Positions 7,298 to 26,646 of a stretch of DNA of 32,035 nucleotides are shown here, one piece after another (position 1 is the first letter of the stretch; the number at the start of each line of letters is the position of its first letter). The position numbers and the translations under genes were made by a program. Origin of the DNA: a virus. The notes beneath the pieces are model-generated. The model worked only from the letters and a program-made list of their open reading frames with translations. It had not been told where the DNA came from and ran no database searches. The DNA lies in IMG/VR virus record IMGVR_UViG_3300008262_000304, positions 1 through 32,035 of that record; one strand, written 5' to 3'.

Positions 7298-8284
7298 TTA
7301 CTTAATCAATTGTAAAATACGAGCCAACTCAGTGCTTTCCCTTAAAAGTTGTGGGTTGTATAAATTTTCAAAACCCATTGCTTTTAATTCTGCTTTAATT
7401 GCATCTAAGTCTTTTTTGCAATCTGGTTCTTTCTCTAGTTCTTGTATTAAAGTAGTTATTTGATTAAATGTATCTGAATCTATAGTTGTAGGGCTAGGTG
7501 GCGCAGGTGGTGCAGGTGGCGCAGGTGGCGCAGGTGGTGCAGGTGGTGCAGGTGGTGTTGGTTCTGGGCCAACATCGTCGTTAGATGTTAATTGAGCAAT
7601 AAGACCAGTAGCAACTATCCCTGCCAATAGACCAAGAAGAGCAGCTTTCTTTGGATTTTTCTTAATCCAATTTATAATTCCTCCACTCTTAATTTCTGCT
7701 TTTTCAACAGCTGAAATTTCTTTAGCGGCCAATGCTTTAGCTTCTAACTTTTCAACTTCTTTTGGACCTAATTTTTCTAATGCTTGTAGTTCTCTGTTTA
7801 CGTGACCAGGCGCATAAAATTGTGGACGATTAACTCCAATTTGTCCTTTGGGTAGTAATGTCTTAGCATCTAGTTCAATAAATTCTCCAACATTCTTTGG
7901 ATCACGACCCCAGACAGCCCCGTCTCTTGTTACATGATTTTCTGGCTTAGCAAAATAATCAGAAAGCTGTTTTTGTTCTGCGTTTAGTCCTGCAACAGCA
8001 GCATCGTCACGTACAGCTGGAACATATCCACCTTTTTCTGCTGTAGCCGCCGCATCATCTGCTGCTCTTGTAGCAGCTGGATTAGCAGCTGGTGCCGCTG
8101 GTTCAACTCTAGTAGCTGGATTAGCAGCTGGTGCCGCTGGTTCAACTCTAGTAGCTGGATTAGCAGCTGGTTCAACTCTAGTAGCTGGATTAGCAGCTGG
8201 TTCAACTCTAGTAGCTGGATTAGCAGCTGGTTCAACTCTAGTAGCTGGATTAGCAGCTGGTTCAACTCTGTCTCTTATATTCAT
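7298..8284 (-). CDS. Repeat-rich protein with one membrane segment (Ala/Pro arrays)
   Basis: 328 aa, function not recognised. After MNIRDR it has four copies of VEPAANPATR, then two 13-14-residue versions (VEPAAPAANPATR type), then an Ala-rich stretch. A central globular part follows (about residues 95-210, including WGRDPKNVGEFIELD and APGHVNRELQALEKLG). After that come a basic stretch and one hydrophobic segment (AALLGLLAGIVATGLIAQL), a run of PPA repeats, and a small acidic helical C-terminal domain. AGGAG lies 7 bases before the ATG. It is the last gene of the late block. The extended Pro/Ala arrays flanking a membrane segment suggest a spacer or fibre-like virion or envelope-contacting protein, which is inference. 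Confidence 0.85.
   Translation of the reverse strand: MNIRDRVEPAANPATRVEPAANPATRVEPAANPATRVEPAANPATRVEPAAPAANPATRVEPAAPAANPAATRAADDAAATAEKGGYVPAVRDDAAVAGLNAEQKQLSDYFAKPENHVTRDGAVWGRDPKNVGEFIELDAKTLLPKGQIGVNRPQFYAPGHVNRELQALEKLGPKEVEKLEAKALAAKEISAVEKAEIKSGGIINWIKKNPKKAALLGLLAGIVATGLIAQLTSNDDVGPEPTPPAPPAPPAPPAPPAPPAPPSPTTIDSDTFNQITTLIQELEKEPDCKKDLDAIKAELKAMGFENLYNPQLLRESTELARILQLIK
7495..7560 (-). repeat. 9-nt tandem repeat coding PPA units
   Basis: Plus-strand ggtggcgca / ggtggtgca units repeat about seven times, coding a PPAPPAPPA tract next to the membrane segment. Units differ at the third position of the Ala codon, so the array is not freshly expanded throughout. Confidence 0.85.
8070..8270 (-). 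repeat. 30/39-nt tandem repeat coding VEPAANPATR units
   Basis: Four essentially identical 30-nt units lie toward the gene start, followed by two 39-42-nt units that carry an extra gccgctggt-type insert. Near-perfect identity at the DNA level implies recent expansion and probable copy-number variation between related phages. Confidence 0.9.
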
Positions 8285-8286
8285 AA

Positions 8287-9633
8287 TTAAACTCCTAGTG
8301 CTTTGGCTGTTGGTGCATCTAATTTACCTGTAACAGTAAGTTTTTGATCTTGTTGGAAAAGTTCTATGGCTTTCTTTGTTAAAGGCCCCATTTTACCGTC
8401 AAGTTCCTTGCCAACAAATCCAAGAGCATCTTGTGCTTTAGCAATAGTTAAATCTCCACCAGTTGCTTTAATTTGTGTAGCAAGATTGTGTCCTGTTAAT
8501 ACATGCTCGGCACCTTTCATAGCAGCAACTGTTCCCGCTAATTCAGTGCCTACTCTTGCTGTAGTTGCAGCCGCATTAGCAGCTCTTGATGTTCCTAGGG
8601 CTGCTTTAGTTCCTCTAGCAGCCGCTTGACCTGCAAGGCCAACACCTGGGATAGGTACAGCAACAGCACCTGCTAGTTCAGCCGCATCAAATGCACTAGG
8701 ATTCCATTCTTTTCCAAACGCATTAAATTTTACACTTGGACTACGTGCTCTTGCTTGAGCTGTTTTTTCTTTTTCTTTGGCCAATGCTTGTGCATACGTA
8801 TCTTTACCAAATGCACTTTTAATTCCTGCTGTAATATTATCACCACCGCCAAAAGTTAATCCTTGATAGGCTCCTCTTGCGGTATCAATAGTATCTTGTG
8901 TTGACCACTCGTCTACTTGATAGTTATTATCAGCAAACTCTTGTATTAAACTTTCTGCAATAAAACCTTCTGCTTGCATTCCTTGAAGACCAGTGATAGC
9001 CGTCTGTTTACCAGATACATCGTTAGGGCTACCCTTCATAACTGGTTTGCCGGTAATATCTTTTCCAGTCATCATTCCGCCTGCTGGCATAGCCGCTTGT
9101 GTTGACCCTTGCGCTTTAAGTTTTTTAATAATTTCTTTTAGTTTAGCAATCTTTTCTGCACATGGCGAGGCAACGGTAGTATTAGTTGTTGGAGTTGTTG
9201 TTGTGTCTACTGGCGGCTTGTCAATATTAGCTAATTTTTCAGGTTCAACTTTAGCGTATTCTATATTGCCAAACAAGCCTTTCTCAATATGTGGCACTAC
9301 ATCCAACCCTGCTGTTTTAAGCAATTGACCTAACTTTTGCGTATCTGCTGGCCCAGTAGATTTAAACCATTTAAAGGGGTACTTTGTAGCTGTTCCAGTA
9401 AACGCATTACCGCCCATACCTTCCGCTGCACCGTAGTATAGTATACCAGTCTTTGGATCAATCGCATCTCCTAATCTAGGAATTTGATTTAACGGTGTTG
9501 CTGCAAGTTTTTTAACTTGTTCGATAGCCGCCATTCTAGCATCTTCTGCTTTAAATTTATCATAGTCGGCACGTGACATAGCAGGTGCTTCGCTAAGTTC
9601 GTCCATTTTTTCTATTAATGATTTTAAGTCCAT
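8287..9633 (-). CDS. Virion-type protein with C-terminal peptidoglycan-binding domain
   Basis: 448 aa. Start chosen at ATG 9633 because AGGA lies 7 bases upstream; for the ATG at 9639 it would be too close. The N-terminus MDLKSLIEKMDELSEA fits the short amphipathic leader shared in this block and contains LIE and LSE, possible prohead-protease sites. The last ~60 residues (AQDALGFVGKELDGKMGPLT, then TKKAIELFQQDQ and TGKLDAPTAKALGV) match a PG_binding_1 domain: DG..G..T..A...FQ, then G.ld..T...L. The middle is Ala/Gly-rich with a hydrophobic stretch (AAELAGAVAVPIPGVGLAG) that could insert in a membrane. A role at the cell wall during DNA injection or lysis is inferred. It lies between two other unknowns of the late block. 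Confidence 0.85.
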   Translation of the reverse strand: MDLKSLIEKMDELSEAPAMSRADYDKFKAEDARMAAIEQVKKLAATPLNQIPRLGDAIDPKTGILYYGAAEGMGGNAFTGTATKYPFKWFKSTGPADTQKLGQLLKTAGLDVVPHIEKGLFGNIEYAKVEPEKLANIDKPPVDTTTTPTTNTTVASPCAEKIAKLKEIIKKLKAQGSTQAAMPAGGMMTGKDITGKPVMKGSPNDVSGKQTAITGLQGMQAEGFIAESLIQEFADNNYQVDEWSTQDTIDTARGAYQGLTFGGGDNITAGIKSAFGKDTYAQALAKEKEKTAQARARSPSVKFNAFGKEWNPSAFDAAELAGAVAVPIPGVGLAGQAAARGTKAALGTSRAANAAATTARVGTELAGTVAAMKGAEHVLTGHNLATQIKATGGDLTIAKAQDALGFVGKELDGKMGPLTKKAIELFQQDQKLTVTGKLDAPTAKALGV

Positions 9634-9646
9634 GTTCATATCCTAA

Positions 9647-10270
9647 TTATTCTGTACCAATAGATTTATCTATTCCTTTTGATCTAACTCCGCCTTGTTT
9701 ACGAACCTTAGATAATTCTTCTATGCCGTGACGAATTTGTTCTAAGTTTTGTTCTAATCCCATAAACATTCCGCCTTTGGCAAGTTTACAAATTTTTTCC
9801 CAAACTACCAATTCGTCGGACTCGGCCATTGATGCTAGATCTTTTAATTGGGACCGCGCTTGACTAATTCTTCCTTTTAAACTCATAGGATTAGCTTTCT
9901 CGTGTCCGTATATAAACGGGTCGTTAGGCTCTCCAGATAATTCAATAGGTGTTTCGTTAACTTGACTTTCTCTCATTAACACTCGGTCTGCAATTCTTTT
10001 ACTGTGTTTTTTAATTTGTTCTTGTTGTACAGTTTTATATTCTTGCTGTTGTACTTGAACTTCGTCTAGATATTTCTTAATTAATGACGTTTTACCGTTG
10101 ACTAGTTTAGGTTTTTGATAATGTTGCATAACCATTTGTACAGGTAAACTAACTTTATGTGGGTTAGCTCCTTCGTTGACTATTTGTACAAATTTAGCCA
10201 TGTCGGAAGAACCTTCTACAGGTTGTTTGGCTGTACTATCAATAGCCTGTAGAATTTTCTTCATGTCCAT
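9647..10270 (-). CDS. Hypothetical protein of the late block (207 aa)
   Basis: Not recognised. It is soluble and mostly helical, with Gln-rich segments (VQVQQQEYKTVQQEQIKKH). The N-terminus MDMKKILQAIDSTA belongs to the amphipathic-leader group but lacks a clear (L/I)xE site; an internal IVNEGANPHK could be a VxEG-type cleavage site. GGA seven bases before ATG 10270 supports the start, which follows the upstream stop by 4 nt. It is likely a virion or head-internal protein by context. Confidence 0.8.
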   Translation of the reverse strand: MDMKKILQAIDSTAKQPVEGSSDMAKFVQIVNEGANPHKVSLPVQMVMQHYQKPKLVNGKTSLIKKYLDEVQVQQQEYKTVQQEQIKKHSKRIADRVLMRESQVNETPIELSGEPNDPFIYGHEKANPMSLKGRISQARSQLKDLASMAESDELVVWEKICKLAKGGMFMGLEQNLEQIRHGIEELSKVRKQGGVRSKGIDKSIGTE

Positions 10271-10274
10271 ATGA

Positions 10275-11651
10275 TTATCCGTTTAAGCGAGCCATTAAAA
10301 CACGCATACGAGCTAAGTCTGCTGATTCAGCAATCATTTCTTGCTGAGTAGTACTTTCGTCATATTTGTTATATTTGGCTTTAACTGGTTCTAAGCTCTT
10401 GCCTTCTTTACCAGCTTTGGCCAATGCCGCCATGCCTTCTTTGCCATATTTTTCATGACCTTTGGCAGCGCGGCTCATTGTTTTTTCAGCTTCGTTAACT
10501 TTCTTTTCTTTCTTAGCACGTAAGTCAGCTAAGTCGTCAGCTTCGATATCACCGTCACTGTCAACATCTAAATTCTTTTGTTTACCTTTAAGCTCTTCGT
10601 CAACTTTTGCATCTTTCTTAGCAAATGGATTTTTCTTCTTGTCAGCAACAGCTTTCTTCATTGGCTCTTTCTTGTCACCGTCCTTGTCCATGTCTAAGAA
10701 GTCTGGCTTTTTGCCTTTGCCTTCATATACACCTTGACCATAGCCCACTTTGCTACCGCCTTGGTCTTCTTCTACTTCCTTGTCGCGGTTGTCAAATTTT
10801 TCACTATCTTTCATACCCCATGTCTTAGCACTCTTAGGGGATTGTTTTTGTTTAGGAGCACGATCTTTCTTTTCAGCTGCTGACATTGACTTAGCATGGC
10901 TCTTTGTGCCCTTGCCTGATTTTTCTTCGCTATCACCACTGTCGTCGTAGCTAGATGGATCACGCTCGTGTTTGATTCCTGTAGCAGTTTTAGTTACGGT
11001 ACCACCTTTAGCAGTCTTAGTTGTGTCGCCTATTTTCTTTAGATCGCTTTGATCTTCAGCCACCTCTTCGTCATCTGGAATACCGTTCTTGTTCTTATCG
11101 ATACGTTTGCTTGCGGCATGCATTGCTTTAGCTTGACGATTGTACTTTTCAACTTTAGATTTAACATGATCAGGAACTGCTTTTGGTTCTTCGTAAACCA
11201 TGCCACTTCCGCCACATTCAGCGCACGGACGTTCACCGCCAGATAAGACGCCTTCGTCAACTTTCTTATCTTTACCAGATTGTTTTTTAGCTTGAAGTTT
11301 TTTAAGCTCTGCAATTTTTGATTTAGCTTCTGTTAACTTATTTTTAAGTTCTTCTTTTTTGCTTTCACTCATCACTTCTGCCATATCAAGATGATTGCCG
11401 TACTCGCTAATTTTCATCTCGTATTCTAGATAGTGATAAACACTGGCAATATAGTCAGCGGCTTTAGTAATTTTAGCCTGTACCCAACCTTCTAATTGAT
11501 CTTCATCTTGAAGTCTCTTAAACAGTTTTAAAGAGTAATTAGCTAGTTTATATAAATCTGCTTTAGCCATCGCACCTTCGCGATCATTAGCAGCTTCTGC
11601 TTCTGCACCGTGTGCTGTAGCGTTCATCATGTCTGGTTGCATGTCGTTCAT
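10275..11651 (-). CDS. Conserved late protein with EF-hand-like Asp loops and a CxxC knuckle
   Basis: 458 aa, very hydrophilic. The N-terminal ~110 residues are Ala-rich and helical (MNDMQPDMMNATAHGAEAEA; then LANYSLKLFKRL and KITKAADYIASVYHYLEYEM), a form recurring in marine T4-like phages. The remainder is Lys/Glu/Asp-rich and probably disordered. It includes CAECGGSG, a half zinc knuckle of the DnaJ type, and three Asp-rich loops resembling EF-hand/dockerin calcium loops: DKNKNGIPDDEE, DMDKDGDKKEP and DVDSDGDIEADD. Repeated VDEG, VYEG and VNEA could be protease sites. GGAG nine bases before ATG 11651 fixes the start, and a GATAAATA late promoter lies about 30 nt upstream. Probably a virion component; the exact role is unknown. 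Confidence 0.85.
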   Translation of the reverse strand: MNDMQPDMMNATAHGAEAEAANDREGAMAKADLYKLANYSLKLFKRLQDEDQLEGWVQAKITKAADYIASVYHYLEYEMKISEYGNHLDMAEVMSESKKEELKNKLTEAKSKIAELKKLQAKKQSGKDKKVDEGVLSGGERPCAECGGSGMVYEEPKAVPDHVKSKVEKYNRQAKAMHAASKRIDKNKNGIPDDEEVAEDQSDLKKIGDTTKTAKGGTVTKTATGIKHERDPSSYDDSGDSEEKSGKGTKSHAKSMSAAEKKDRAPKQKQSPKSAKTWGMKDSEKFDNRDKEVEEDQGGSKVGYGQGVYEGKGKKPDFLDMDKDGDKKEPMKKAVADKKKNPFAKKDAKVDEELKGKQKNLDVDSDGDIEADDLADLRAKKEKKVNEAEKTMSRAAKGHEKYGKEGMAALAKAGKEGKSLEPVKAKYNKYDESTTQQEMIAESADLARMRVLMARLNG

Positions 11652-11678
11652 GTTAAGAAACTCCGTTATCTTGTAGTA

Positions 11679-11686
11679 TATTTATC
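11679..11686 (-). promoter_or_regulatory. T4-type late promoter (GATAAATA)
   Basis: GATAAATA on the minus strand, 28 nt before the 458-aa gene's ATG, overlapping the stop codon of the upstream gene. T4 late promoters are TATAAATA; in marine T4-like phages the first base is variable. Confidence 0.7.
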
Positions 11687-11921
11687 GTTTTACGGCGCCT
11701 GCTCCGAAGATGTTGTTAGGCATATCTAGAGCATTTTTTGCGGTACCGTCCTTGTTTTTTGCTTGTACTGTCATTGGCGGCTTAGGATTTCCGCCCTTAC
11801 CGTACTTTTTTCTGCGGTTTTTATCACCAATAGCTAAATGAGGGCTTACAACAGAAGCAATATTGCCTGAACTAGTTGAACCGGTTGTAGCTGTTTCTGA
11901 TAGTATTTCAATAATTTTCAT
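11682..11921 (-). CDS. Small basic late-block protein with capsid-targeting-like leader
   Basis: 79 aa. It starts MKIIEILSETATTGSTSSGN; the first nine residues resemble T4 capsid-targeting peptides and contain IIE and LSE, the (L/I)xE consensus of T4 prohead protease gp21. The rest is Gly/Lys/Asn-rich (DKNRRKKYGKGGNPKPPM) with no membrane segment and ends in AVKR. After cleavage it would leave a small basic protein, similar in character to T4 internal proteins that are packaged with DNA. Its ATG overlaps the preceding stop by one base. Function inferred from the leader and composition only. Confidence 0.75.
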   Translation of the reverse strand: MKIIEILSETATTGSTSSGNIASVVSPHLAIGDKNRRKKYGKGGNPKPPMTVQAKNKDGTAKNALDMPNNIFGAGAVKR

Positions 11922-12151
11922 TATTTCTTCCTTATTCCTTTGCCAACAGGTTTTTCGCCAGTTAGTTTAGGTAAACTAAACCAAAGCTGAAACCATTCAG
12001 GAGTTCCGGGTTTAATATTATGTTTTTTCATAAGCTCTCCCTTTTCATTTCCTGTAATGCTTATATTGCTACCTTCATCGATGCTATATTCTTTTAATCC
12101 TGTATACGGACGAATGCCAGCTAGTTGTTTAATTTTATCAAGTTCGTCCAT
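11921..12151 (-). CDS. Small late-block protein (76 aa)
   Basis: Starts MDELDKIKQLAGIRPYTGLK and contains LKE and SIDEG, both possible prohead-protease sites (I/L-x-E). The C-terminal half (KPGTPEWFQLWFSLPKLTGE) has a compact aromatic patch followed by a basic tail. Not recognised beyond this. It follows the Dps-like gene by one base and overlaps the next start, so it is tightly coupled. Probably a virion-associated or packaged protein. Confidence 0.75.
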   Translation of the reverse strand: MDELDKIKQLAGIRPYTGLKEYSIDEGSNISITGNEKGELMKKHNIKPGTPEWFQLWFSLPKLTGEKPVGKGIRKK

Positions 12152-12152
12152 A

Positions 12153-12593
12153 TTATTTTAGTGTTGCTCTTAGCATCCAACTATGTTTTTTATGTGCATC
12201 TTGTCTTGCAGCAAAGAAATCACTTAGGCCGTGTTCTCCGCGTTCTTCAGCTAGTTGAAAAATTGCCTTAAAAATATTAGCCATTTTTTCACTGTCTGCA
12301 TACAATTCGGTTAGCATAGAACGTTCGTCTAACATCTGTGTTTCGTCTTCGACTACAGTTAGCATATTAAAACGAGAAAAACTTGCTGGAGAATATGTTC
12401 CTGCTTTGCGTAAATTTTCAGCAAAATCATCAATTATACCGTACACTTCGTCATAGATTTTTTCAAACAACGCATGATACTGTGGAAAGTTCGGGCCTTC
12501 TACATTCCAATGGAAGTTTTGTGCTTTTAATGCAAAAGCATACTCACTGGCAAATGCTGTTTTTAATGCTGCAAAATATTTTTCGTCTTCCAC
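12153..12593 (-). CDS. Dps-like ferritin (DNA-protecting mini-ferritin)
   Basis: 146 aa, the usual Dps size being 150-190. It contains the Dps/ferritin signature: KAQNFHWNVEGPNF then YHALFEKIYDEVYGIIDDFA, with His, Asp and Glu placed as in the inter-subunit ferroxidase centre, and a second helix pair ending AARQDAHKKHSWMLRATL. Dps proteins form 12-mers that oxidise ferrous iron and shield DNA from peroxide. It lacks the Lys-rich N-terminal DNA-binding tail of E. coli Dps and the capsid-targeting leader of its neighbours. Position inside the late block suggests it is made late and could protect replicated phage DNA, or be packaged. A host-derived auxiliary gene is likely. Confidence 0.85.
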   Translation of the reverse strand: MEDEKYFAALKTAFASEYAFALKAQNFHWNVEGPNFPQYHALFEKIYDEVYGIIDDFAENLRKAGTYSPASFSRFNMLTVVEDETQMLDERSMLTELYADSEKMANIFKAIFQLAEERGEHGLSDFFAARQDAHKKHSWMLRATLK

Positions 12594-12595
12594 TT

Positions 12596-13603
12596 TTAAA
12601 CTCCGTACTTGTTCTTTTTAGGCTTTGCTACTGTACTAGTTTTGTTAACATCAGCCATTTCTTTACTACGTTTACCCGACCAGTTTTGTATAGTACCTGC
12701 TCCAACTTGTTTAGCTGCAGCTTTGACCATTTCAAATTCTTCTTCAGTATAAGAACTGAGTAAAGGGTCTCCACCAATCCAATTGTCTGCTTCCATTTTA
12801 GTTGGAAAATTAGGAGCACCTGCTAGTGCAATAGCCATTCGATAATTCATATATGCACCGCCACGACCAGTGCTCATATTTAAATCTGGCATTGTAAGAG
12901 CATTCCTCATAGCGGCTTTCTTTTCTTTGTCAATAGTTTTAGTTCCGCCCTTGCCAACTGAGCCTTCGGCTACTTCTGATTTTTTAGTTTTTTCTGGATA
13001 TTGATTTAGGTAATGTGCAACAACGTCAAAAATAGGTAAGTCTTGATCGCCTACTCTAATAGTTACATCTGGTTTTATCCCCATGTCTTTATAAAAAGAT
13101 TCTCGATCCCCTGCTTTTACAGCTGCTCTAAGATTGGTCGCGCTGGCTAATCTTTCAGTTTTGACCCATTCAATTTGATTAAATTTATACATTCCGTGCG
13201 GCTTATCACTAGCACCGTTGTATTGCTGTAGCGTATTAATTAACCATTCTTCGTCGGTGTATACTTTTAAGTGAACACTTTCTCCGTATTTTTCGTAGAT
13301 ACGACTTGCTAAAGTTAACAGGCTCTGTTCGGGAATAACATGTCCTTTGACTTTTGACCAAACCGCCGCCATAGCCTGCAGTTTAACATCGTACGGTAAC
13401 GGATCTTTAGGACCGCTTGTAGATTGATTTGTTCCTATGAACCAAATAGGATTAGTTGATGCAGATTGCCATACAGCTTTATGGCCGCGATGCGGTGGAT
13501 TAAACCGACCAAAGGCAACCCCAATGGTTTTTAAACCACTACTAACTTCTTCAGTATCTTTTGGTTTGTCTTGTTTTAATTCAAATAATTCTCGTAGTCT
13601 CAT
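12596..13603 (-). CDS. Nucleotidylyltransferase-fold protein (HIGH motif) with late-block C-terminal domain
   Basis: 335 aa. Start at ATG 13603, which overlaps the upstream TGA (ATGA) and gives the leader MRLRELFELKQDK; the ORF can be opened further upstream but without a ribosome site. Residues 32-41, GRFNPPHRGH, form the (T/H)xGH nucleotide-binding motif of the cytidylyl/adenylyltransferase superfamily, and SATNLRAAVKAGD resembles the second ISST..R-type motif. Relatives make NAD, FAD or CoA precursors or CDP-activated compounds; the substrate cannot be told. The C-terminal ~130 residues (from VAEGSVGKGGTK to KPKKNKYGV) form a separate domain of unknown function. LFE and VAEG are possible prohead-protease sites, so the enzyme may be processed and packaged. 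Confidence 0.82.
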   Translation of the reverse strand: MRLRELFELKQDKPKDTEEVSSGLKTIGVAFGRFNPPHRGHKAVWQSASTNPIWFIGTNQSTSGPKDPLPYDVKLQAMAAVWSKVKGHVIPEQSLLTLASRIYEKYGESVHLKVYTDEEWLINTLQQYNGASDKPHGMYKFNQIEWVKTERLASATNLRAAVKAGDRESFYKDMGIKPDVTIRVGDQDLPIFDVVAHYLNQYPEKTKKSEVAEGSVGKGGTKTIDKEKKAAMRNALTMPDLNMSTGRGGAYMNYRMAIALAGAPNFPTKMEADNWIGGDPLLSSYTEEEFEMVKAAAKQVGAGTIQNWSGKRSKEMADVNKTSTVAKPKKNKYGV

Positions 13604-14823
13604 GGCCTTTTCCCTGGTGCCCAAGTTGTAGGAACAAACTTCATGTTACCATATTTATGGTGTTTCTGTGCATAACGAACATGACCTTCACCGTGCGTAT
13701 CCCAAATTTCTTTGCGTGGTTGCTTTTTAATAGCTGTATCCATAGCATCTTTCATGTTTCTAATGCCTTTAATTAGATGGAATATTCCATCTAATCCACC
13801 TGGATGTTCTTTAATCATGTTAACGACATGCTGTTGTTTTTTAGCACTTACACCTTTAGTAGTCATCCAATTAGTAAATGTTTCGCCAGTAATTGCATTA
13901 AAGTTTTGCGTACCACTGGCATGTAAGTTACTCATTTGATTGAAGAACGGATAAAAGATACCATTCTTATCTGGATCAGGTAAGCTGCCTATAAATGCAT
14001 CAATAGCAGGCCCATGCTGATTAACATATTCTATCATATCATCTACTGGACTTAAATCCATTTCAGGCGCTTCGTCTGTATAAACCGGCCCTGTTACAAT
14101 TAAACCCGGTGTTTGATTAAACATTTCAAAGTCATCTAATGGAACTTGTTCTCTATCAGCAGCACCAAATGTAGGAAATGTTGCATGACCTACTACCATA
14201 ACTTTAGCTTTTGCAATGCGAGCACCTAATGTACTCTTAGAGGAATCTGCATCTACGTGATAACAAGTACCTGATTTAGGATTAGGACAGAATGTCCATA
14301 TACCTTTTTTATATTCTTCTGTTGGCGGATCTAATTGTTTGTCTAAACTTGGATCTACACCAAACAAAGAGTCTGCATATACAAATCCTACAAAGTCTTT
14401 AGGTGTAGCCGCATCAAATAGCGGATATAGGTTACTAAAGTTTGTAGCAAATTCTTTGCGCTGTCGAGCGTCTTCAGGAGTTTTAGGGTTCCCGCTTTTG
14501 TTAGCAATAAAATCGTATACTTCTTGAGGGCTAGTACCTTTAACACCCCTGCTCCACTGATTGTGCCCTGCTAAAATTAGCGGACCATTTTTCGTTTCAC
14601 GCCCCCAATAGACTTGAGGATTACCATCCCACTTACGCCTTACTGTGGTTCCGCCTGCTATTTCTTCAGCAATTTCTTTAAAATGATTTAGTGCTTCTAA
14701 TGTGCCATCACTACCTACAAAGAATACTAAGTGCTCCGGATGATTAAACGGACGGCCGTACTTTTCCATACTGACAACAGTAGGAGCAGCACTTTCACGA
14801 TAAAACAATTCTCGAAGTAACAC
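13600..14823 (-). CDS. Ligase-like (KxDG) protein, DUF6267-like, with capsid-targeting-like leader
   Basis: 407 aa, opening MLLRELFYRESAAPTVV. Residues 61-75 read VRRKWDGNPQVYWGR, which has the KxDG core of motif I of covalent nucleotidyltransferases (RNA/DNA ligases, capping enzymes), with Lys64 as possible AMP attachment site. Further possible motifs are FVYADSLFG (III-like), HGEGHVRYAQ (IV-like EG.V) and GNMKFVPTTW (V-like K.V). It may belong to the DUF6267 group of phage proteins; the ligase relationship is inference from motif order. It overlaps the downstream nucleotidyltransferase by ATGA, suggesting the two act together. The LRELF leader and LRE site mark it as a candidate packaged protein. 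Confidence 0.8.
   Translation of the reverse strand: MLLRELFYRESAAPTVVSMEKYGRPFNHPEHLVFFVGSDGTLEALNHFKEIAEEIAGGTTVRRKWDGNPQVYWGRETKNGPLILAGHNQWSRGVKGTSPQEVYDFIANKSGNPKTPEDARQRKEFATNFSNLYPLFDAATPKDFVGFVYADSLFGVDPSLDKQLDPPTEEYKKGIWTFCPNPKSGTCYHVDADSSKSTLGARIAKAKVMVVGHATFPTFGAADREQVPLDDFEMFNQTPGLIVTGPVYTDEAPEMDLSPVDDMIEYVNQHGPAIDAFIGSLPDPDKNGIFYPFFNQMSNLHASGTQNFNAITGETFTNWMTTKGVSAKKQQHVVNMIKEHPGGLDGIFHLIKGIRNMKDAMDTAIKKQPRKEIWDTHGEGHVRYAQKHHKYGNMKFVPTTWAPGKRP
13652..13659 (-). promoter_or_regulatory. Candidate internal late promoter (CATAAATA)
   Basis: CATAAATA lies 49 nt before the nucleotidyltransferase start, inside the end of the ligase-like gene. It fits the N-ATAAATA form of the other late promoters here but could be a chance coding match. 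Confidence 0.4.
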
Positions 14824-14825
14824 AG

Positions 14826-15197
14826 TTAGTCCTTATAAGAGCCTTTGCTAATATCATTGCAAATATCTTCGTGCATTTTACCGCAAATTTCATTACATAG
14901 TTCTTCATCTAATTCTGTAGGAAGTTCTCTTATAGGAAACTTTTTAAGGTATGCTTTATAACCTTCTAATGCCGCTTGCTTGAAAATATTAGGAGAAGTT
15001 TTTAATCGCTTTTTATTTCCTTCTACACATTTTTGTACAGCAGGAAATACAAACTTACGATAGATATTATCGTCGTTATTTAGAAAAAAAGTAACATCTT
15101 CAATTAGATCAAAATCTAATACTGTGTTGTCCCCTTCTTTTCGAACAAACTCTAAATCTTTAATATTCTTGTTTTCTAGTAGTTCTCTAATACGCAT
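14826..15197 (-). CDS. Late-block protein with capsid-targeting-like leader (123 aa)
   Basis: Start set to ATG 15197, giving MRIRELLENKNIKDLEF; the longer frame to 15224 begins inside the leader hairpin and is unlikely. The leader matches those of the next two genes (MLLRELF, MRLRELF) and contains IRE and LLE. The body is a mixed alpha/beta protein with LDFDLIEDVTFFLNNDDN and an acidic C-terminus carrying two Cys (ELCNEICGKMHEDICNDI, three Cys in all). First gene of the late block, about 50 nt after a GATAAATA promoter. Function unknown. Confidence 0.8.
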   Translation of the reverse strand: MRIRELLENKNIKDLEFVRKEGDNTVLDFDLIEDVTFFLNNDDNIYRKFVFPAVQKCVEGNKKRLKTSPNIFKQAALEGYKAYLKKFPIRELPTELDEELCNEICGKMHEDICNDISKGSYKD

Positions 15198-15269: not shown

Positions 15270-15905
15270 TTAGGCTTTGGAAATGCGTTCTATCTTGTTT
15301 ATAGACCCGCCTAAATGCATTTTTGCAAGTAACAAGTTGTTGTTGCCTGTTATATAGAAGTAAGTTCCACCCCAACTTTGAGGCTTGCTCAGTTCTTTTT
15401 TGCAACTTTTTGTAATTTTAACTTTGCTGTTTGACTCAGCCCAAGTTATAAATGCAGAGTGTTCTTGACTAGTTTTACCTAATGTAACTTTATAGTCAAA
15501 AGGAACTTTTGGTAAAATTACTACTCCGCTTTCTAAAGTTAGATTTTCGGGAGGCAAGCAGACATATTTTACATGATCTTGGTCTAGTTTAATCAGCTGA
15601 TCAATATCTTTTTTATTATTTGTATAAAAGCTAATATACGGAGTTTCTACCCGTAGTTCATAGCTATTAGTTTTTGCAAAAAATTTACAAAGACTAGTTG
15701 CATAATCTAAATCTTCTTGAGACCTAATAGCTGTATCAAGTCTTACGTATGGTCTGCCTTTATTTTTGTTTAAGTCAACTTGTTTTAATGCAGATAATAT
15801 ATGATCTAAATCTTTGTATCGGAATAGATGTGCGCCAGCACATACCAGTACAATTTTATACTGGTATGTGTTTTTAAACAATTGGTTAGTTGTTTTGAAG
15901 AACAT
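15270..15905 (-). CDS. Conserved hypothetical protein downstream of clpA (211 aa)
   Basis: Start taken as ATG 15905 (MFFKTTNQLF), overlapping the clpA end by 20 nt. Mixed alpha/beta with paired strands (YKIVLVCAGAHLFRYKD; ELRVETPYISFYTNNK; VKYVCLPPENLTL) and a C-terminus KMHLGGSINKIERI. The C-terminal style is that of conserved T4-like marine phage proteins, but I do not recognise a function. It is read with dnaJ and clpA from the promoter near 19.1 kb. Linkage to clpA makes an adaptor or substrate role conceivable, without motif support. Confidence 0.8.
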   Translation of the reverse strand: MFFKTTNQLFKNTYQYKIVLVCAGAHLFRYKDLDHILSALKQVDLNKNKGRPYVRLDTAIRSQEDLDYATSLCKFFAKTNSYELRVETPYISFYTNNKKDIDQLIKLDQDHVKYVCLPPENLTLESGVVILPKVPFDYKVTLGKTSQEHSAFITWAESNSKVKITKSCKKELSKPQSWGGTYFYITGNNNLLLAKMHLGGSINKIERISKA

Positions 15906-18168
15906 TATCAATAATTGTTATACTATTATCAGCAGTTAATAGTGGAACTCTAGCAGTTTTTGGTTTGGATACTAGTTGTAGTTTATTATCTTCTACAGAA
16001 ATAGTTAGCCAGCCACCGCCTTTAAGGTCACCAAACAACATCATCCTTGCTAGATCCCTTTTAATTTCTTTGTCTATAACCCGCTGTAATGGTCTTGCAC
16101 CCATCTTGTCGTCAAAACCTTTATCAATAAGCCAACTCATTGCCTCATTAGTGATTTTAATTTTAATACCTTTATCTTTAACTTGTGTACGCATGTCGTC
16201 GATAAACTTCTCAACAACTTTATACATTGTATCTCTGTTAAGTTTGTTAAAGGTAATTATGCCATCTAATCTATTTCTAAATTCAGGTGCAAAAAACTTT
16301 TTAAGATCTGCATCGCTGTAGTCCTTAGATTGGCTACCAAACCCAATTTGATTCTTTTCTGCTGACTGTGCGCCAGCATTGGTTGTAAGAATGAGTATTA
16401 AGTTGCGGCAATCTGCACGTTTACCGTTTGACCCAGTAATAAAACCGTTATCCATCATCTGTAGCAATACTGTGCTAACATCTGGATGTGACTTTTCAAC
16501 TTCGTCAAATAACAGAACAGCATTTGGGTTCTCTTGAATCTGTGTAATAAGCATACCAGTATTCTCTTCAAACCCAACATATCCTGGAGGGCTTCCAATC
16601 AACTTGCTGATGCTGTGCTTTTCTTGATATTCTGACATATCAAATCGTAACAGCTTTACTCCTAAATGCTTGGCTAAAGATTTTGCTGTTTCTGTCTTAC
16701 CACACCCTGTTGGTCCCATGAATACAAATGAACCAATAGGTTTATTTTCAGGTTTAAGTCCTGCCTGTGCCACAACAATTTTATCTACAATGTCAATAAC
16801 AGCATGTTCTTGTCCGTACACTTCTGATTTAATATTATCTTCTAATTTTGACAAATTCACGCTCTCAGTTTCCATAACTTGCTCTTCTGGTAAGTTTACA
16901 GCTTTAGAAATTTCAAATTGAATTTCTTTTTCAGTAACTACTCTTTCGTCTGCAAGTTTCAAATTGAATCTAGAACACGCACAATCGATTAAATCAATAG
17001 CCTTGTCTGGAAGTTTTTTATCTGCTTGATATTTGACACTTAATTTTATTGATGCTTGAAGAGCATCTTCTTTAATTTTTACATTATGATGACTTTCGTA
17101 ATACTTCTTAATTCCTTTAAGAATTTGTAAAGTCATCTCTTCTGAAGGCTCGTCAACAGTGATGCGTTGGAATCGACGCATTAACGCACGATCTTTTTCA
17201 AAGTGCTTGCGATATTCTTCCCAGGTTGTTGATGCTACAACTTTGATGTTACCTTTGCTTAGTGCTGGCTTCATCATATTGGCAAGATCGTTGGCACTAT
17301 TACCAGCCGAACCAGCACCGCTGATCATGTGGGCCTCGTCAATAAACAATACCGTCTTACCTTTCTTGCCTAGAGCCTTGAGTACCATTTTGAAACGTTC
17401 TTCAAAATCACCTCGATATTTACTACCAGCAAGCATTGAACTTATATCTAAGTTATAAACTGTATAGTCTTTAAGGAAATCTGGAATAGCACCCCTAACA
17501 ATATTGTAAGCAAGTCCTTCTGCTATAGCAGTCTTACCTACACCCGGATCACCAACTAAAATAACATTACTTTTAGACCTACGCCCTAGTGCTAATGAGA
17601 TTTGTTCTAGTTCGTCTATTCTTCCAATAACTGGATCAATTTTATTTTTCTTAACTTGATCATTTAAGTTAGTTGTAAATGCTTGTAAAGCCTTAGAACT
17701 TTGACCGTCTGGTTGTTCTTGTTCTTCTTGCTCAACAGACTCGTTGTTTAGGTAATCAGCAAATTTGTCTTTATCAATTTCTGCTTTAGCAATAAAATAA
17801 AATGCATATGATCTTTTTTCGCTCATCATAGCAATAAAAACATCACTGGGATCTATTCTCTGTCTTCCGTTAAAAAGAACTTGTGTAAACGCTCTATTAA
17901 GCACACGTTCTACACTCTGTGTCTTTCGAGGTTTTACAACTACGTCTGGTACTGTAATTTCGCTGCATTTAAATTCTAAATAGTCTGCAAGATCTTTTCT
18001 TAGACCTTCGACATTAGCACCGTAGCCTTGAACAGTATTACTAAACGGTTCGTCAGCGAGCATTGCAAACAGTAGATGCTCTATAGTTAAATATTCGTGA
18101 TGGAGTTTTTTTGCTGTTTCAATTGCTTTTTCAAAAACACTTTGCAAATTCTCGCTTGGCTCTACCAT
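15886..18168 (-). CDS. clpA: ClpA-type AAA+ unfoldase
   Basis: 760 aa (E. coli ClpA 758), with all parts present. It has a Clp N-domain (about 1-140), a first AAA+ module with GDPGVGKT (206-213) and VLFIDEAH (273-280), and a second AAA+ module with GPTGCGKT (485-492) and VLLFDEVE (551-558). GYVGFEENTG forms a pore loop. IGF at 608-610 sits where ClpA carries its IGL/F loop for docking on ClpP, so the phage protein should still engage a ClpP. No clpP is in the window, so it may capture host ClpP and redirect proteolysis during infection, or act alone as an unfoldase. AAGGA lies 6 bases before the ATG. It follows dnaJ in one operon. Confidence 0.95.
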   Translation of the reverse strand: MVEPSENLQSVFEKAIETAKKLHHEYLTIEHLLFAMLADEPFSNTVQGYGANVEGLRKDLADYLEFKCSEITVPDVVVKPRKTQSVERVLNRAFTQVLFNGRQRIDPSDVFIAMMSEKRSYAFYFIAKAEIDKDKFADYLNNESVEQEEQEQPDGQSSKALQAFTTNLNDQVKKNKIDPVIGRIDELEQISLALGRRSKSNVILVGDPGVGKTAIAEGLAYNIVRGAIPDFLKDYTVYNLDISSMLAGSKYRGDFEERFKMVLKALGKKGKTVLFIDEAHMISGAGSAGNSANDLANMMKPALSKGNIKVVASTTWEEYRKHFEKDRALMRRFQRITVDEPSEEMTLQILKGIKKYYESHHNVKIKEDALQASIKLSVKYQADKKLPDKAIDLIDCACSRFNLKLADERVVTEKEIQFEISKAVNLPEEQVMETESVNLSKLEDNIKSEVYGQEHAVIDIVDKIVVAQAGLKPENKPIGSFVFMGPTGCGKTETAKSLAKHLGVKLLRFDMSEYQEKHSISKLIGSPPGYVGFEENTGMLITQIQENPNAVLLFDEVEKSHPDVSTVLLQMMDNGFITGSNGKRADCRNLILILTTNAGAQSAEKNQIGFGSQSKDYSDADLKKFFAPEFRNRLDGIITFNKLNRDTMYKVVEKFIDDMRTQVKDKGIKIKITNEAMSWLIDKGFDDKMGARPLQRVIDKEIKRDLARMMLFGDLKGGGWLTISVEDNKLQLVSKPKTARVPLLTADNSITIIDNVLQNN

Positions 18169-18218: not shown

Positions 18219-19061
18219 TCAAGACGATTTAGTAATTTTATCATTTAAAATTTTTAATTGATTTACTAAATTTGGATCAGTAACAGCTGGAGTTTGTATT
18301 TTTACAACTGTAACAAATCTTCCTATTTTTCCCGAATGTGGGTTTTTAAAACCATTACCGTTTGAAGCATACTCAGATCCCGATTCTATGCCAGGCTTTA
18401 GATCAAGATCCATACTCTGCCCATTAATTTTAGTTACTTTTTTCCTACAACCGATCATAGCTTCGATTGGAGTAATTGCTACTACAGCATATAAATCATC
18501 GCCTCTCCTTTCAAACTCAGGATCCGGAGCAACGATAATTGTAACGTTTAAGTTACCTCGTTGAATATTAGGATTAGAGTCGTCGCCTAATCCTTGATAT
18601 CTAATAGTGTCCCCATGACAAATACCTTCGGGGAGATTTATAACTACAGTTTGCGACTTTCCACTAGGTAGTCTATAATTGGCTTCTAGTTGCTTACCTA
18701 AAAAACTGTCTAATAATGATATTTGACATTGAATGTTCAAGTCTCTATTTTTTACTGATCTTCTTTGGAATCCAAAAATATCACCGAACGGACTATTCAT
18801 GCCGCCAAACATATCATTAAACCCGGCATTACCTGTATGAAAGTGAAATTGATGTCCGTCGCCGAACTTTCGTTGATTATCGTAGTCCGCTTTTTTTTGA
18901 GGATTGCTTAGTGTATCGTATGCAACACTGATATCCTTAAAAAGATTTTGATCACCGCCTTTATCGGGATGGTGTTTATTAGCCAAGCCTCTATAGGCTT
19001 TTTTTATTTCGTCTGGGCTTGCAGATTCGTTAATACCTAAAATCTTATAGTAGTCATTCAT
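18219..19061 (-). CDS. dnaJ: DnaJ/CbpA-type J-domain co-chaperone
   Basis: 280 aa. The N-terminal J domain (1-65) has HPD at 31-33, which stimulates DnaK ATPase. A Gly/Phe-rich linker follows (about 70-100, FGGMNSPFGDIFGF), then C-terminal peptide-binding domains (GDTIRYQGLGDD; RRGDDLYAVVAITPIEAMIG; GRFVTVVKIQTP). No CxxCxGxG zinc finger is present, so it is the CbpA/type II architecture. It should recruit host DnaK because no phage DnaK is seen. It heads an operon with clpA and has its own sigma70-like promoter; no obvious Shine-Dalgarno precedes the ATG. A 6-bp AT-rich hairpin (18203-18217) follows its stop and is unlikely to terminate. Confidence 0.95.
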   Translation of the reverse strand: MNDYYKILGINESASPDEIKKAYRGLANKHHPDKGGDQNLFKDISVAYDTLSNPQKKADYDNQRKFGDGHQFHFHTGNAGFNDMFGGMNSPFGDIFGFQRRSVKNRDLNIQCQISLLDSFLGKQLEANYRLPSGKSQTVVINLPEGICHGDTIRYQGLGDDSNPNIQRGNLNVTIIVAPDPEFERRGDDLYAVVAITPIEAMIGCRKKVTKINGQSMDLDLKPGIESGSEYASNGNGFKNPHSGKIGRFVTVVKIQTPAVTDPNLVNQLKILNDKITKSS

Positions 19062-26253: not shown

Positions 26254-26646
26254 TTAACGTGCGCCAAAATCTTCTGGACGAACTTCTGCCCCGTGAGTGG
26301 GAGTAGTGTAAGAACCAAATTCAGCTCCGTTCGGCCTGTCGTCAGTTACTAGTAAAATTCCTTCTGGATCAATTCTACGAACAGTGATAGTTGATCCGTT
26401 GTTTGATTCAATATCGATACCTCGAGTCCATCTTCCGTGCTCTACTAATAGCCACTCGCCGACTTTAACATCAGTTTGTTCGTGTCCAACAGCATACACT
26501 TTGCACCATCTAGGTTTAACACCTTCGGATTTTCCGTCGTCACTTCTTAGAACTATACCACCTGCAGTTTTTTGTTCTCCAAAGTTCATATCTTCGACTA
26601 GTATGTGATTTCTAATTGGCTTTATGCTACCAGTAATTTTTGCCAT
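26254..26646 (-). CDS. GroES-like co-chaperonin (gp31-type)
   Basis: 130 aa (T4 gp31 111, GroES 97). IKPIRNHILVEDMNFGEQKT then AGGIVLRSDD is the GroES core with the mobile-loop region (KTAGGIVL) that binds GroEL. VYAVGHEQTDVKVGEWLLVE is the following strand pair. A C-terminal extension of about 30 residues (NGAEFGSYTTPTHGAEVRPE) is not part of GroES. T4 gp31 replaces GroES to fold the major capsid protein; the same role is likely. ATG overlaps the previous stop by one base. Confidence 0.88.
   Translation of the reverse strand: MAKITGSIKPIRNHILVEDMNFGEQKTAGGIVLRSDDGKSEGVKPRWCKVYAVGHEQTDVKVGEWLLVEHGRWTRGIDIESNNGSTITVRRIDPEGILLVTDDRPNGAEFGSYTTPTHGAEVRPEDFGAR

Follow-up and report, generated by a model that had tools for sequence, protein, structure and literature searches.

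Nine genes on the minus strand of a 32,035-nucleotide stretch of viral DNA (IMG/VR record IMGVR_UViG_3300008262_000304, hereafter the window) form a block between positions 8287 and 15197 in which proteins with unrelated bodies begin with similar short leaders. The window is the complete 32-kb record and a fragment of a T4-like phage genome, and its clade appears from the metagenome records to be uncultured and of freshwater origin. We consider it likely that these leaders correspond to the capsid-targeting propeptides of T4, in a dialect peculiar to the clade, that they are cut by gp21, and that the bodies are packaged in the head with the DNA. The evidence suggests that the virus particle carries the tagged proteins, two of them predicted enzymes, together with its DNA.

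Four proteins of the block share one clear common leader. A 123-amino-acid (aa) protein without an assigned function for its body (14826-15197) starts with MRIRELLENK (15168-15197), kept as MRI[RIV][ED]LLE[GN] across 85 tblastn matches. A 407-aa DUF6267-like protein with a GTG start (13600-14823; Pfam PF19782, E = 4.7e-9) starts with MLLRELFYRE (14794-14823; conserved in 36 sequences). The third is a 335-aa protein of the nicotinamide mononucleotide (NMN) adenylyltransferase (NMNAT) type (12596-13603; phrog_3041, E = 1e-14) with the leader MRLRELFELK (13574-13603), which reads M[RK]LRELFENIYE in relatives, and the fourth is a 79-aa protein (11682-11921) with the leader MKIIEILSE (11895-11921) and a predicted cut after E9. 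Two further leaders are conserved and of a looser type. One belongs to a 207-aa protein (9647-10270) starting MDMKKILQAI, kept as MDMK[KR]ILQA[LM]D in relatives. The other, MDLKSLIEKMDELSE/A (9589-9633; here and below a slash marks the presumed cut), belongs to a 448-aa protein with a C-terminal peptidoglycan-binding domain (8287-9633; PF01471, E = 1e-9), and the corresponding leaders of relatives end in ISE/A, LIE/A or ITE.

These six N-termini had been quoted in an initial annotation of the window, and all lie on the minus strand at the positions it gave, with sound starts. The ATG at 13603 overlaps the stop at 13600 as ATGA, the ATG at 11921 overlaps the TAA of the upstream gene, and the GTG at 14823 stands two bases past a stop. 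The gene at 9633 has an alternative in-frame ATG at 9639 (MNMDLKSL). Orthologues of the leader proteins start at the same residues. The initial annotation also called the genes consecutive, which they are not, because leaderless genes at 12593 (Dps-like), 12151 and 11651 stand between them. Its further statement that (L/I)xE occurs at the right place in the leaders held for LLE8, LFE8, LSE9 and LSE15 but not for MDMKKILQAI at 10270, which has none, nor for the DUF6267 protein, which has only LRE5.

By that annotation's own criterion, [LI]xE within residues 2-12, the motif was present in five of the nine block proteins and in two of 30 others (Fisher p = 0.004), against a background of 8.7% of internal 11-mers. 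Among 1,286 clade proteins, a regular expression for the leader gave 142 matches compared to 3.4 expected from internal positions, and these clustered around the DUF6267 gene (119/405 at distances of up to 5 kb vs 8/309 elsewhere, p = 5e-24), also when the three defining families were removed (42/273 vs 8/309, p = 2e-8). The expression was drawn after the sequences had been seen, and the blind T4 profile test described below is therefore the cleaner evidence. Clustering of the clade proteins into families was run with low-complexity masking (229 proteins chained together when unmasked), and in relatives over 20 different families of bodies had the leader in front of them. In the same block, similar N-termini are also found on HAD/5'-nucleotidase domains and on small basic proteins. 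In one relative's block, a HAD-type phosphatase is fused to a GH19 chitinase/lysozyme domain (L055, 8476-9861).

The leader is conserved at the level of the protein. Across 36 homologues of the DUF6267 protein, with identities as low as 50%, M1 and R4 were invariant and L3, F7 and E10 were conserved in at least 90%, the leader being followed by an indel-rich linker of variable length and then by the conserved body. The ratio of synonymous to nonsynonymous differences was 2992:1129 for leader codons 2-7 and 824:7995 for codons 11-18. An AlphaFold model of the DUF6267 protein gave residues 1-16 a predicted local distance difference test score (pLDDT) below 50, with the body well predicted.

The link to the phage head came from relatives with longer sequences. 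Three long relatives all encode gp20, a core protein, gp21, gp22 and gp23, and the gp21-type protease that the initial annotation had proposed locating was identified as Peptidase_S77 in G001, G003 and G008 (E 2e-19 to 2e-27). The core protein of the three long relatives (78-79 aa), encoded beside the portal in the position of T4 gp67, starts with MILRELFY, the same leader as in the DUF6267 protein of the window. The major capsid propeptide in relatives ends in KYLSE/SATAGATSAGN, a predicted gp21 site matched by position with T4 FLTE/A. Apart from the capsid protein, this capsid-site motif was confined, among 1,351 proteins, to families of small proteins from the block. Their members include the window protein at 11682-11921 (MKIIEILSE/TATTGSTSSGN), where a copy of the site, LSE/TATTGSTSSGN, occupies 11862-11903 (LSE/SATAGATSAGN in relatives). 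In this window protein the leader is fused straight to the capsid-like site, and together with its relatives it forms a natural deletion/fusion series around the predicted gp21 site. In several relatives, small-protein families (L008, L010, L014-L017 and L023) carry LxE/[ST]ATAGATSAGN internally, about 55-200 residues in.

A leader profile trained only on three leader families of the window's clade was applied blind to 258 T4 open reading frames. It put the alt.-1 duplicate at rank 1, gp24 at 2, Alt at 4, gp21 at 10, IPII and IPIII at 15 and 16 and gp22 at 19, and the top 20 held six of the ten known gp21 substrates (hypergeometric p = 1.7e-5). Targeting of T4 IPIII is affected by mutations of residues 4 and 7, and its processing by mutations of residues 8 and 10 (PMC9026906), and the conserved clade positions 4, 7 and 10 fall in the same register, but with Arg as residue 4. 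In T4 itself (AF158101, 18966-19130), the hypothetical protein gp61.1 starts with MKTFKEFIKED, almost the IPI/IPIII leader, and is a candidate unrecognised head protein.

T4-like cyanophages have homologues of the enzyme at 13603 as a core gene (T4-GC190), and these have been reported from virions. Published mass spectrometry detected the homologues, which are cytidylyltransferases, in virions of S-SM1 (PMC3037559), S-SCSM1 (PMC9602691), S-SZBM1 (PMC9146016) and S-CREM2 (PMC10665884). In all four genomes examined, the virion-detected homologue has a T4-type leader with LxE or IxE before Ala: MKKFSAFLNE/A in S-SM1, MKSFLQFLKE/A in S-SCSM1, MRFRQFIIE/A in S-SZBM1 and MKNFSSFLTE/A in S-CREM2. In S-SZBM1 the leadered enzyme (140) is present in the virion table and the neighbouring, leaderless DUF6267 gene (141) is absent from it. 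A motif in the IPIII register was carried by six annotated S-CREM2 proteins compared to 0.04 expected by chance, and five of the six, including a S-adenosylmethionine (SAM) hydrolase and a kinase, were detected in the virion by mass spectrometry (p = 0.003). Only this motif separated virion from non-virion proteins in S-CREM2; the loose motif [FYLI][LIFVT].E did not (p = 0.12). The likeness to T4 capsid-targeting peptides first noticed in the window is supported by the blind recovery of T4 gp21 substrates, the core-protein leader, the copied capsid site and the virion-borne homologues with leaders of the capsid-targeting type.

Further observations were made in these cyanophage genomes. A virion-detected Cas9-like protein of S-CREM2 (OR473000, 7704-10313; L149) has an IPIII-type motif at residues 19-25 (RFASFMAE/A) and ends in TFRDFLN, and to judge from this sequence a phage Cas9 may be packaged through a capsid-targeting sequence. 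Beside its gene are those of the SAM hydrolase (MKDFDSFLEE) and an APH-like kinase (MKRFDAFLTE), both with the motif at residue 1. The S-SCSM1 virion protein ORF93 (MK867354, 91626-91835) has a leader-like C-terminus, ...TFKEFLEYIE, which recalls the C-terminal processing of T4 Alt.

Several results weigh against a capsid-targeting role for the leaders. Searches for gp21 and gp23 in the window found neither, because the record is a 32-kb fragment. None of the window proteins matched the exact IPIII pattern M..[FY]..[FY][LI].E, residue 4 being Arg and not aromatic; the pattern occurs in a few proteins elsewhere in relatives (MKSFKEYLIE, MKSFNEYLTE). The DUF6267 and 10270 leaders have no strict [LI]xE where the cut would naturally fall, and in the DUF6267 leader the conserved E10 follows Y/F/L. 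The virion data come from cyanophage homologues, outside the clade of the window, and among such homologues the P-HM2 cytidylyltransferase and DUF6267 protein have no leader. The residue classes of the S-CREM2 motif were settled only after the matches had been seen, and the replication in S-SCSM1, with just two motif proteins and one of them detected, has no power. Since the exact IPIII pattern is absent from the window and strict (L/I)xE is not universal, we regard the clade leader as a distinct dialect, joined to a new set of predicted cargo.

In another reading, which we think improbable though still to be taken seriously, the leaders do direct proteins to the prohead core, but the tagged proteins are parts of the core or of the assembly apparatus, broken down by gp21 and expelled, and are not delivered to the host. 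T4 gp22 and gp67 are degraded in this way (PMC9026906), the portal-adjacent core protein has the same leader as the block, and Lys and Glu abound in the proteins encoded at 10275-11651 and 9647-10270, which resemble a degradable scaffold in their several internal VxE or IxE sites. Against this, two of the tagged bodies have catalytic motifs that do not vary and the predicted folds of enzymes, and mature cyanophage virions retain NMNAT-like homologues. A far weaker candidate is a leader helix that is unrelated to the head and serves as a docking tag for other machinery of the phage, for instance the ClpA/B-like ATPase or DnaJ encoded next to the block. The operon does lie directly behind the Clp-type ATPase and DnaJ genes in the window and in relatives, but a docking tag of this type would not yield the blind recovery of T4 substrates, the leader in the gp20-gp23 module, the capsid-type site or the virion-detected homologues. 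A chance or nucleotide origin of the similarity (shared start-region DNA, translation initiation or recent duplication of gene starts) was rejected as scarcely credible by the codon and frequency tests. In its favour, Leu/Glu-rich N-termini are common and [LI]xE alone occurs in 8.7% of internal 11-mers, but the 142 matches far exceed expectation, the codon differences in the leader are mainly synonymous and the leader is still kept at 50% protein identity.

Two of the bodies that the capsid-targeting leaders would carry are predicted enzymes. The core of the 13603 protein (residues 24-203, followed by a disordered tail) matched the NMNAT fold (VIA-align Z 13.3; Foldseek NadM E 8e-6) and has an HxGH motif (H38xGH41), a SxTxxR-type motif, an invariant R159 and a Rossmann-like fold. 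By these features the predicted enzyme is a member of the NMN adenylyltransferase/PPAT superfamily. In the DUF6267 body K64, D66, G67, E379, G380 and K395 are invariant (K64-W-D-G, E379-G, K395). Its AlphaFold model has a pLDDT of 86, and all top-50 VIA-align rows are RNA/DNA ligases or capping enzymes. RNA ligase rows reached Z 6-7.6 and the best Foldseek E was 0.011; as Z is at most 7.6, the ligase assignment stays a prediction. Cyanophage DUF6267 members are homologous to that of the window (hhalign E 7e-11) and have KWDG, QGDL, PEGFVAI and KLVDR. DUF6267 proteins of the window and of cyanophages show a ligase-like predicted fold and motifs I, III, IV and V of ligases, and they are probably covalent nucleotidyltransferases of the RNA-ligase type. 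A PDB sequence search with DUF6267 profiles gave nothing significant, and tblastn of the window protein against annotated phages gave no match, the annotated-phage relatives being reached via synteny and Pfam. No paper on DUF6267 was found.

The clade leaders probably work like the T4 capsid-targeting system and belong to it, with M-x-[LI]-R-E-[LF]-[LF]...E in place of T4's M-x-x-Y-x-x-F-I-x-E. While the head assembles, each leader would dock its protein to the core of the prohead, and the gp21-type protease, encoded elsewhere in the genome, would then remove the leader after Glu. The small protein at 11682-11921 would be cut at the site copied from the major capsid protein, and some tagged proteins may be core components that get degraded. 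The remaining bodies, including the NMN-adenylyltransferase-type enzyme and the DUF6267 nucleotidyltransferase, would stay in the head with the DNA and could enter the cell at infection. We infer targeting and cleavage from T4 and from converging sequence evidence, and injection only by analogy with Alt and the internal proteins. A role of the cargo in restoring NAD and resealing RNA at entry is speculative.

More broadly, and tentatively, an evolving address code may link prohead core and cargo across T4-like phages, with one dialect per clade, the packaged kit acting at entry, before phage gene expression, against NAD-depleting or RNA-cutting defences. Such a kit might comprise NMNAT-type NAD synthesis, RNA-ligase-type sealing and nucleotidases and, in cyanophages, SAM hydrolase, kinase and Cas9. 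If so, a ten-residue leader would tell from sequence alone which proteins the heads of T4-like phages carry, the recurrent NMNAT-like enzymes of cyanophage virions would be explained, the uncharacterised family DUF6267 would gain a first role as a packaged ligase-type enzyme, and new targeting tags would be available for loading proteins into phage capsids.

The three remaining genes of the block have no leader. They encode a Dps/ferritin-like protein with a GTG start that begins MEDEKYFAAL (12153-12593; PF00210, E = 2e-21), a 76-aa protein (11921-12151; MDELDKIKQLAG) and a 458-aa Lys/Glu-rich protein (10275-11651) that shares KPDFLDxDKDGxKKEPMKKA with the S-SCSM1 virion protein ORF92 (70% over 30 aa, E = 2e-8). 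The block lies between the Clp gene and the DNA polymerase gene, and the window also encodes a clamp, a clamp-loader and PhoH (neighbour names were read from the sequences). The phage encodes its own Clp-type ATPase (15886-18168), DnaJ (18219-19061, adjoining the block) and GroES-like protein (26254-26646). In a 328-aa protein at 7298-8284, EPAANPATRV is repeated in tandem, and a long stretch of (PPAPPA) lies beside a hydrophobic segment.

The initial annotation suggested that the block may be an undescribed set of injected effectors. The leader, the clade and DUF6267 are new in this sense, but virion-borne NMNAT-like proteins have already been reported and cargo loaded by capsid-targeting sequences is known in T4. 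The T4 system (IPI, IPII, IPIII, Alt and the gp24 propeptide, all cut by gp21; PMC9026906) likewise places an N-terminal propeptide of about ten residues on unrelated bodies, with conserved positions 4, 7 and 10, and the relatives likewise have a gp21-type protease and an LxE site in the major capsid protein. It differs in having an aromatic residue 4 where the clade has Arg, several clade leaders are shorter (E at 8) or lack strict [LI]xE, and T4 cargo consists of small inhibitors or an ADP-ribosyltransferase whereas the clade cargo has NMNAT-type and ligase-type folds. The NMNAT-like/cytidylyltransferase virion proteins of the cyanophages S-SM1, S-SCSM1, S-CBWM1, S-SZBM1 and S-CREM2 are homologous to the 13603 enzyme (about 29-32% identity over the catalytic domain), and their genes usually adjoin a DUF6267 gene. 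The leader, of the capsid-targeting type in the four virion-positive genomes examined, has the form M..F..FL.E/A in cyanophages compared to M.LRELFE in the clade. The published cyanophage reports do not link the occurrence of these proteins in virions to a targeting leader, and a search of open-access text found no paper making that connection. The Methylophilales phage Melnitz (MZ577097, 12203-19789) likewise groups DUF6267, NMNAT-type and 5'-nucleotidase genes into a single block. Most N-termini of this block resemble capsid-targeting sequences, but the leaders differ from those of the clade, the proteins are not annotated as virion proteins, and the DUF6267 protein has only remote similarity to that of the window (hhalign E 7e-11). 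Ejected proteins of phiKZ and SPN3US likewise carry propeptides removed by a prohead protease, in another phage lineage and with another motif, the cut being at S/A-x-E and the propeptides of SPN3US mostly exceeding 100 residues.

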